Below are positions 10,187 to 51,433 of a stretch of DNA of 64,000 nt, one piece after another (the first letter of the stretch is position 1; the number at the start of each line of letters is the position of its first letter). The position numbers and the translations under genes were made by a program. The notes beneath the pieces were generated by a model. The model saw only the letters and a list, made by a program, of their open reading frames with translations. It had not been told where the DNA came from and did no database searches. The stretch covers positions 314,433 to 378,432 of the forward strand of contig NZ_NCQY01000009.1 of the NCBI RefSeq assembly GCF_002894645.1, read 5' to 3'. Source of the stretch: Salinibacter altiplanensis. Its GTDB lineage: Bacteria > Bacteroidota > Rhodothermia > Rhodothermales > Salinibacteraceae.

Positions 10187-10203
10187 CAACCAAGCCGCCC
10201 TTA

Positions 10204-10429
10204 GAACCTGTTTCAATTTCTGTCTCGGGGCTCCGAGCGGCAGTGAGGGCCTGCAAATCGCCTCCGATCTCAGGCGGTAGCACCCTGAAAGCACTTCACT
10301 GCACGGCGGCACTAGCTTCGCGTCGCTTCGCTGGCGCTCAGGGCGCACCACGACAGCCCTCGACCATGCGCCGATGTTCGGCTCATCGATGCTCGCTCCC
10401 CCCATCCGATCCAAAATCAACACAGGTTC
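10204..10429. mobile_element. MITE-like element with 3-bp TTA target duplication at the porin stop codon
   Basis: A 226-bp non-coding element has imperfect inverted ends (GAACCTGTTTCAATTT at the left; the right end read on the minus strand is GAACCTGTGTTGATTT, 13 of 16 identical). It is flanked on both sides by TTA (10201-10203 and 10430-10432). Three-base TNA duplications are known for the IS1031 and ISL2 groups of the IS5 family; assignment to that family is inference. The right-hand TTA is also the TAA stop codon of the minus-strand porin gene. No transposase fragment is recognisable inside. Confidence 0.7.
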
Positions 10430-11701
10430 TTAGAATGCAATCTGCATTCGCGTGAGGACCAGGGTCTCAGCGTCGGGGGGAGACGCCCCCCCGGCGGCCT
10501 CGAACCAGGTGCGCTCCACCCCTAGCATGAAGCGCACCAGAGCGTTGGGGTACCAGCTGACGGTAAGCCCCCAGGCGGTGGCCTGGGACGCCGCGGTGGG
10601 GCTTGCGAACGTCGGGAACGCCTCGTCGTCGAGGGTTGCGCCGTGGAGGCGCGCGCCCAGCTCGATCGCCCCCGTTCCGCGCTCGGCCCCAAACGGGTCG
10701 CGCGGCGCCACCGTCCCCTCTCGGGCCTTCTCTCCTGTCACCACCACGGCGGCACTGGCCTGCCACGCACGGTGTGTGAGTGTTTCCGTCGCCGGCCCGT
10801 GCCGTACCGCCTCAGTCGTCAGTGTGTACTCCCCCAGCAGCTCCACCGGACCGGTGTAGAACCGGGCCTGGGGGGCCAGCCGCCACCGCCGCCCGTCGGC
10901 CCGCACCCCATCCCGGTATCCGAAAAACGACTGCCGGCCGGTCGTGCTCAGTCCCGTGAGCGCCGGCGTTGCCTCTGTGCCCGTCACCGTTCCCACCGTG
11001 CCGGCCACCCCAACGCCGAGTCCCTCGAGCCCCCCGCCTGTTCCCGCAAACGGCGTCGCAAAGAGCCGCCCGACCCCCTCCTTTGCGTCGTCGACGTCGG
11101 CCCCCGGCTCCGACGCGCCCGGAGTCCCGTTGAAAAGCCCAACCGCATACCGCAGCCGCTCCGTCCCCACGGTGCCGGACAGCGAGATGCCCACGTCCCG
11201 CCCCGGCACCAGGCCCGCCGGGAAGCCCCGTTCCACGTGCATGAGGCCGGTCGTGGACGACAGGGTCTCCAGCCCCACCGGCACCTTGAACCGCCCCATG
11301 CGCAGGGTCAGGGCCGGGGCGAACCGCGCCTCGACAAACGCATCGTCGATCTCGGGACCCCCGGTCCCAAAGTCGCTCCGGATGCTGAACGCAAACCGAT
11401 CGTACACGCGCCCCTGAAACCGGGGCCGCACGCGCCGAAGGAGAAACCCCTCCGCCCCGGGCGGGGCCGTCTGCTCCAGGAAGAAGCGCGCGTCGGCGTA
11501 GAGATCGCCCCGCATGCGAAGCGCAAACGCGCCGTCCTCGGAGGCCACTCGAAAGCCCTCTTCGCCGACCTGCACCGCCCCACTTGCCCCTGGCTCAGCG
11601 ACCGTCTGTGCTCTCCCTTCGTGTCCGAATCCGACGAGCCCCATCGCTGTGAGAAAGACGACGAGCAGACGGGATTGGGCGGCAGTCATGGAAAACGGCA
11701 A
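10430..11701 (-). CDS. Outer-membrane porin, OprP/OprO (phosphate-selective) type
   Basis: This 423-residue outer-membrane beta-barrel protein has an N-terminal signal peptide cleaved around residue 31 (FGHEGRA-QT). The barrel start shows the family pattern: RMRGDLYADARFF, then LLRRVRPRFQGRVYDRFAFS, DDAFVEARFAPALTLRMGRFKVPVGLE, and GRDVGISLSGTVG, all hallmarks of the OprO/OprP superfamily. It ends in Phe, as expected for recognition by the BAM complex. Phosphate specificity is not shown; many relatives are general anion or sugar porins. A MITE-like element abuts its stop codon, and the gene upstream (15-11.8 kb) also encodes an outer-membrane barrel. Confidence 0.85.
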   Translation of the reverse strand: MPFSMTAAQSRLLVVFLTAMGLVGFGHEGRAQTVAEPGASGAVQVGEEGFRVASEDGAFALRMRGDLYADARFFLEQTAPPGAEGFLLRRVRPRFQGRVYDRFAFSIRSDFGTGGPEIDDAFVEARFAPALTLRMGRFKVPVGLETLSSTTGLMHVERGFPAGLVPGRDVGISLSGTVGTERLRYAVGLFNGTPGASEPGADVDDAKEGVGRLFATPFAGTGGGLEGLGVGVAGTVGTVTGTEATPALTGLSTTGRQSFFGYRDGVRADGRRWRLAPQARFYTGPVELLGEYTLTTEAVRHGPATETLTHRAWQASAAVVVTGEKAREGTVAPRDPFGAERGTGAIELGARLHGATLDDEAFPTFASPTAASQATAWGLTVSWYPNALVRFMLGVERTWFEAAGGASPPDAETLVLTRMQIAF

Positions 11702-44221: not shown

Positions 44222-44616
44222 AGCAGTAAGGAGTCGGGCAATTCGGAAGGATTCAGAAACGGAGCACACAACCCACCCAATTGGGATGACAATGCCATGT
44301 GCCGTGGATGCACCGCGTTAAATGATATGGGTCCCCCCCTGTTTCAGCCTTGCGTCCTCGCGCGGGAACGTGCGCAAGACATCACGTTTCTCGACGGCAC
44401 TGCCCGGGATGTGCAAACGTCATTTTGCACGAGCTCCACGAAGCCGCAGCCGGGGGGCGCAGTGCCGGGCGCAAAGCAACCGAGTGCTTTCAGAGTGCGC
44501 TGGGAGCAGGGCGACCGAGTGCTTTCAGAGTGCGCTGGGAGCAGGGCGACCGAGTGCTTTCAGAGTGCTCCCGAGTACTCGGCGGGACGGCCACAGGACG
44601 TCCGCCAAACAGCTTC
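44222..44616. mobile_element. nuoA-nuoB spacer holding an element related to the one downstream of glnA
   Basis: No protein gene is seen in this spacer. From roughly 44340 to 44616 it resembles the 51246-51406 element: CATTTTGCACGAGCTCCACG (44420-44439) parallels CCTTTTGCGCGAGATCCACG (51351-51370), and CGCCAAACAGCTTC (44603-44616) is the same terminal repeat. The right end is followed by TCA (44617-44619), which is the nuoA stop codon. The left inverted end is not recognisable, so this copy is degraded or altered by insertion of the tandem repeat. Boundaries on the left are uncertain. Confidence 0.55.
44477..44568. repeat. 35-bp tandem repeat, about 2.6 copies
   Basis: The unit begins ACCGAGTGCTTTCAGAGTGC and continues GCTGGGAGCAGGGCG. 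Copies start at 44479, 44514 and 44549; the first two are identical over the full 35 bases and the third stops after 20. The repeats are directly adjacent, so this is not a CRISPR array. It expands the nuoA-nuoB spacer. Confidence 0.9.
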
Positions 44617-44991
44617 TCACTGCTCAAAGTCCAGGCCGCCCTTCTTTACGTCATAGAGCAGCCCGACGAGCAAAATGAACGTGAACAGCGAGAGGACAGC
44701 AATCACGCCCAGTCCAGCCCCACTCTCGACGAAGCTGTGGAAGCTGGCGGCCCACGGCCACATAAACACGACCTCGACGTCAAAGACGATGAAGATCATG
44801 GCCACGAGGTAGAACTTGACTGAGTAGCGCTCGTGGGCGCTGCCAACCGGGTCCATCCCACTCTCGTAGGGCATGGTCTTCGTCTCGCTGGGCCGACTCG
44901 GCCCGATGTACGCGGCCGCCGCCAACAGGGTGAGGGCCAGCCCCAGGGCCAGCGCAATCATCAGGAACAGCGGCACGAAATCGCCAAACAT
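44617..44991 (-). CDS. nuoA: NADH-quinone oxidoreductase subunit A
   Basis: A 124-residue membrane subunit with three helices. Family markers are the ETKTMPYESGMDPVGSAHERY loop (given as TMPYESGMDPVGSAHER), KFYLVAMIFIVFDVEVVFMWPW, and the C-terminal LLVGLLYDVKKGGLDFEQ. It is the first gene of the nuoABCDEF transcription unit. Its stop codon is the target triplet next to an element end, so the protein terminus is intact but the operon spacer is rearranged. Confidence 0.97.
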   Translation of the reverse strand: MFGDFVPLFLMIALALGLALTLLAAAAYIGPSRPSETKTMPYESGMDPVGSAHERYSVKFYLVAMIFIVFDVEVVFMWPWAASFHSFVESGAGLGVIAVLSLFTFILLVGLLYDVKKGGLDFEQ

Positions 44992-51240: not shown

Positions 51241-51245
51241 CTTCA

Positions 51246-51406
51246 GAAGCTGTTTGGTGAATTGATGTTCAGCCGAGACACAGTGGGCGAAGCTGCAAAA
51301 TGGCGCCCAAATGAGTCTCTGTAGCGGAGCTACCGGGCGAATGCAGAAGCCCTTTTGCGCGAGATCCACGAAGTCGCAGGCCACAGAGTGTACGCCAAAC
51401 AGCTTC
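51246..51406. mobile_element. MITE-like element with TCA target duplication downstream of glnA
   Basis: A 161-bp non-coding element with perfect 12-bp inverted ends (GAAGCTGTTTGG at the left, CCAAACAGCTTC at the right), flanked on both sides by TCA (51243-51245 and 51407-51409). The ends and the TNA-type duplication parallel the 10204-10429 element. Its right half is related to the nuoA-nuoB spacer. No transposase fragment is visible. Confidence 0.8.
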
Positions 51407-51433
51407 TCAGCGCTCAAACGAGATCCATCGGCG

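Follow-up and report, generated by a model that had tools for sequence, protein, structure and literature searches.

A truncated MITE at the nuoA stop codon of Salinibacter altiplanensis: recurrence of TNA-duplicating elements at stop codons mostly as part of a wider 3'-end bias

The window analyzed was a stretch of 64,000 nucleotides of Salinibacter altiplanensis DNA. On its reverse strand lies an open reading frame for a NuoA-type protein of 124 amino acids (PF00507, E 2.6e-30), which has the C-terminal residues FEQ followed by TGA. The complement of this stop codon, TCA, adjoins the sequence CCAAACAGCTTC with zero gap (Table 1); the preliminary description had placed the end of the repeat “one base before” the nuoA stop, and its coordinates agree with this result when the wording is taken to mean adjacent. 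The 12-mer CCAAACAGCTTC is present in 21 exact copies in the 3.59-Mb window genome compared to 1 copy of a reversed control pattern and is therefore a real repeat end. An Rfam search for an RNA family at the element site gave one match with an E value of 0.62, far below the gathering score. In the spacer between nuoA and nuoB, at approximately 44308 to 44346 of the window, a stretch on the nuo strand with the structure GAAACAGGGG...ACCC...CATTTAA is kept in most of the 12 spacers compared (L052-L064), and the remaining spacer varies. Judged from this conservation, the stretch is possibly a candidate regulatory site; Rfam yielded no match over threshold for it.

Table 1. Features at the nuoA locus, further elements in the window, and related loci with elements at a phosphoribosyltransferase gene
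Feature	Position	Strand	Basis or remark
226-bp MITE, sister family	10204..10429	+	TTA duplication 10201-10203, 10430-10432
Porin_O_P gene; TAA stop = TTA copy at 10430-10432	10430..11575	-	Sequence and domain match
Remaining part of MITE copy at nuoA, far end lost	44412..44616	+	Likeness to intact copies; edge at 44412 approximate
35-bp tandem repeat, 2.6 copies, within nuoA element	44479..44568	+	Perfect repeat
Terminal repeat CCAAACAGCTTC	44605..44616	+	Position and copy count in genome
nuoA TGA stop = T(C)A flank of element	44617..44619	-	Sequence and ORF end
nuoA (PF00507)	44617..44991	-	ORF and Pfam match
Intact 161-bp MITE, family of nuoA copy	51246..51406	+	TCA duplication 51243-51245 and 51407-51409
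Phosphoribosyltransferase 3' ends with TNA elements	L320, L322, L330		Different elements, three species

The repeat belongs to a family of elements with the inverted ends GAAGCTGTTTGG...CCAAACAGCTTC, which are mostly 160 to 350 bp apart and flanked by a 3-bp TNA duplication. Terminal inverted repeats are present without a transposase gene, because the elements are too short to encode one. Among the matches listed, 40 ends with a TNA flank and at most one mismatch were located in the window genome, and of the 13 genus genomes, 11 contained a match. A first set of paired elements had identical flanks in 60 of 65 cases (27 TCA, 27 TGA, 3 TAA, 2 TTA, and 1 ACA). The pairing step favored identical flanks in the window genome and demanded them in its relatives, so that the 26 of 30 paired events with identical 3-bp flanks in the window genome represent the fairer figure for the target-site duplication. 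A 703-bp pair in L131 and a 1144-bp pair in L126 were taken as chance pairings.

The third element of the window, the intact 161-bp MITE, is 27 bp away from a TAA stop and not on a stop. The 226-bp element belongs to a sister family with the ends GAACCTGTTTCAAT, and its end on the stop codon of the Porin_O_P gene, which had been put forward earlier as a companion case to nuoA, was borne out. The corresponding empty site is clean: TGA is followed directly by GGC... in the relatives G001, G004, and G005, and the window has TAA, the element, and TAA GGG... at this position.

DUF4096 transposase domains were present in 9 of the 13 genus genomes. Of the loci examined, L142, L149, L157, and L158 had insertion sequences (ISs) of this type with GAG-N-C-like ends (similar to GAG-N-CTGTTT) and identical TNA flanks, with two overlapping transposase-like ORFs in L142 and two neighboring ones in L157, and a few short elements of the window genome have the end GAGTCTGTTTT in common with L142 and L158. 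The ends of the DUF4096 ISs and those of the MITEs are similar, not identical. We infer a parent for the exact GAAGCTGTTTGG family, since the search of the genus genomes did not reveal a complete IS bounded by GAAGCTGTTTGG. A 1341-bp pair in L229 was set aside as a candidate for the parent IS; its long ORF looks IS110-like and presumably encodes an IS110-type transposase. At L229 1676-3016 (G002:C100), this ORF is bounded on the left by a MITE-like end and on the right by an exact CCAAACAGCTTC, and TGA flanks both ends; an IS may have inserted into a MITE here.

The ends of the GAAGCTGTTTGG...CCAAACAGCTTC family resemble those of the IS1031 type in the IS5 family. According to PMC12016507, ISLrh of the IS1031 group has the ends GAACCTGTCT... 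/ GAACCTGTCTAGTATCT, a TNA preference, and a TGA duplication. GA..CTGT terminal repeats, a TNA target, and an exclusive 3-bp duplication, the latter two being the rule of the group in that source, are shared by the elements described here, and the two transposase-like ORFs of L142 and L157 are likewise similar to the situation in ISLrh. Unlike members of the IS1031 group, the elements here are without a transposase, their target extends to YTSAR, and a full-length IS with the exact ends did not appear. An IS5-type transposase gene was present only on separate ISs, and the elements are therefore classed as MITEs with IS1031-like ends and not as IS1031 members. MITEAba12, as portrayed in PMC6382973, is comparable in being short, noncoding, multicopy, and moved in trans, with shared terminal repeats and target duplications; its duplications comprise 9 bp and its length 111-114 bp, whereas the elements here are longer and mosaic, some with internal 35-bp repeats. 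The literature search found nothing on these elements in this organism nor on a preference of ISs or MITEs for stop codons.

The MITE remnant at nuoA, about 205 bp, resembles the intact copies in L114 and L127 and the 161-bp element of the window. Units related to its 35-bp perfect tandem repeat are present in other element copies, so that the length of this array may vary. The left terminal repeat as partner end and the second TNA copy were searched for and are both gone; the target duplication of this copy itself can therefore not be demonstrated. The nuoA-nuoB spacer was without the element in 12 of 12 relatives, with a nuoA stop of TAG in 11 and TAA in 1, which leaves a TGA at the time of insertion unproven. 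Because TAG is no TNA site, the stop was either altered before the insertion or lay next to the landing site of the element, in which case TGA took over as the stop later. The second course, proposed for nuoA only, with landing at a TNA beside the old TAG stop and a small later change that made TGA the stop, is plausible but less likely than not. It agrees with the stop codons of the relatives, with the TGA directly behind the TAG of nuoA in relative G007, and with the base before the nuoA TGA, a G where most other stop-codon cases have C or T. However, G001, G004, and G005 with the most similar NuoA region possess no TNA directly after TAG, and a path from TAG via TAA to TGA ahead of the insertion is equally simple. 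As half an element with an apparently ancestral TAG stop and a G before TGA, the nuoA copy is the weakest example of a stop-codon rule.

For a broader evaluation, 131 insertions from 9 genus genomes (50 from the window genome, 34 from G007, 17 from G008, and 30 from six others) were picked by terminal repeat plus TNA or by BLAST similarity to an element, disregarding genes. This set is a lower bound; G010 and G012 do not contribute to it, and G006 and G009 contribute only part of their listed ends. Genes were called with a home-made codon-usage caller that assigned 77% of the window to genes; the class of sites more than 150 bp behind stops thus probably includes missed coding DNA, and the comparison of the near zones was used as the main basis for this reason. 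Six to seven of the 131 events within called genes, probably chance motif matches, were dropped before the counts. L113 and L222, in which stop and duplication share two bases, were set apart in the count of 12/123 and assigned to the 1-20-bp class in that of 13/124.

The target is better written YTSAR than TNA. Compared to noncoding TNA near stops, targets favored C/T before and A/G after the core, with YTNAR present in 63% of the 59 targets compared to 31% of background and 18% of stop sites, and weaker preferences extended as far as position 9. The target-site model was trained on 59 non-stop sites against noncoding TNA contexts as background. Outside the model were 9 paired stop-codon events, 8 deliberately and one (L240) through unequal flanks; YTNAR was found in 8 of these 9 (P 7e-6 against 0.177), which indicates that the local sequence suffices for the use of stops. 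Outside the core, individual empty sites showed no palindromy (0.252 at positions 5-12 versus 0.263 after shuffling), so that targeting of terminators or hairpins was rejected. The peak of insertion density 21-50 bp behind stops would agree with a preference for some feature of gene 3' ends, a terminator hairpin or the end of transcription, with stop codons hit as neighbors, but the same lack of palindromy renders this unlikely.

Exact in-frame TGA or TAA stops were occupied by 13 of 124 insertions versus 5.5 expected from noncoding TNA plus stops (P 0.004). With tighter gene calling, the counts were 12/124 (P 0.004) and 12/125 (P 0.001), and a further count gave 12/123. Exact stops, with 12 to 13 of about 124 insertions, were used about 2.4-fold more than the average noncoding TNA. 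The window genome alone had 7 of 48 insertions on exact stops (P 0.005 to 0.001), and 10 of 121 remained after removal of the two prompting cases of the window (P 0.02). A first position-weight null, with 2.6-5.1 expected and stops that looked strongly favored, was set aside because its background, the base composition of the whole locus, rewarded AT-rich intergenic DNA; it was redone with noncoding TNA.

The zones behind stops were also densely occupied. In the set of 124, 13 insertions were observed versus 4.7 expected at 1-20 bp, 24 versus 7.1 at 21-50 bp, 16 versus 18.0 at 51-150 bp, and 58 versus 88.6 at >150 bp; the set of 123 contained 12 on the stop and 11, 23, 16, and 61 in these zones. 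The number of events per site weight was 0.056 for the stop, 0.062 for 1-20 bp, and 0.085 for 21-50 bp, and fell beyond 50 bp. This means that the stop codon is not singled out, because TNA sites 1-20 and 21-50 bp behind it are at least as densely used. Compared directly to TNA 1-50 bp behind stops, stops were not enriched (12/46 with 14.8 expected; 10/44 with 14.2 expected when the window cases were removed). With the target models, the comparison to 1-50 bp was likewise nonsignificant (P 0.73, 0.70, and 0.18); that to 1-150 bp gave P 0.115, 0.123, and 0.024, and the stop excess in the last value, reached only by the 19-position model, is a weak residual hint.

The suggestion that these elements repeatedly settle at TGA/TAA stops, to be seen in a count against other TNA triplets, consequently stands with respect to recurrence (about 5 expected) and to the excess over all noncoding TNA, and falls with respect to the neighboring 1-50-bp sites. 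A transposase or host factor with an active preference for translation stop codons would explain the 2.4-fold use and also the repeated occupation of one phosphoribosyltransferase stop, at which three of the 11 genomes readable there have different elements; it is nevertheless very unlikely, given the missing excess over sites 1-50 bp downstream, with or without the window cases, and the fit of the used stops to YTNAR. Recurrence at stops is real, but for the most part it belongs to a broader bias toward gene 3' ends.

The phosphoribosyltransferase gene (PF00156), which we take to be pyrR-like, had its stop occupied by an element in G000 (the window genome), G005, and G006. Its 3' end was readable in 11 of 13 genomes; the ORFs picked in G011 (L326) and G012 (L332) ended unlike the others. 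The copy in G000 was closest to other G000 copies (97%) and that in G005 to an oppositely oriented copy from G008 (95%), whereas that in G006 had only the ends in common with the L157 IS and matched no library element. The three look like independent insertions in their sequences. Because the G006 case was met while inspecting this gene, no probability is attached to the repetition. Since different elements have struck this one stop in three species, stops in a YTGAR context might be regarded as genuine hot spots of insertion, which seems quite doubtful; the duplicated TGA would then offer a niche that is neutral for the protein and maintained jointly by target sequence and selection.

Gene orientation could be classified for 114 of the 131 insertions. 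Convergent gaps contained 30 insertions versus 21.0 expected (P 0.02), and divergent, promoter-bearing gaps 20 versus 33.6 (P 0.003). This points to survival at harmless sites, since loss of harmful insertions would leave a convergent excess and a divergent deficit, and we infer that the 3'-end bias arises from survival rather than from targeting.

A MITE end, a YTSAR target, and survival behind genes are probably the best explanation overall. The nonautonomous MITE, presumably mobilized in trans by a transposase of the IS5 family (IS1031 type), inserts at YTSAR-like sites and duplicates the central 3 bp, as TCA/TGA or less often TAA/TTA. An insertion on an in-frame TGA or TAA leaves the protein unchanged because the 3 bp exist twice afterwards and the element follows the copy. 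Where the stop is T-TAG, TAG is completed again by the G with which the element begins; this is the situation at L113 3045 and L222 3136, the latter resting on a weak gene call of 77 amino acids, where a TTA duplication and a TAG stop have two bases in common. Insertions breaking genes or promoters would be lost, and survivors would therefore accumulate in convergent gaps and in the zone that extends from the stop codon to some 50 bp past the gene. Among these survivors is probably the nuoA copy, with its far end truncated afterwards.

The recurrence at stop codons thus falls within the usual biology of MITEs, and a simple neutral explanation is available for it. The 3-bp TNA duplication is a way for a mobile element to occupy a stop codon with the protein unaltered, and the apparent preference for stops fades against neighboring 3' sites. 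Two details should be of use to annotators of IS5/IS1031-type elements, namely the refinement of the TNA rule to YTSAR and the reuse of a single stop codon by elements in three species.
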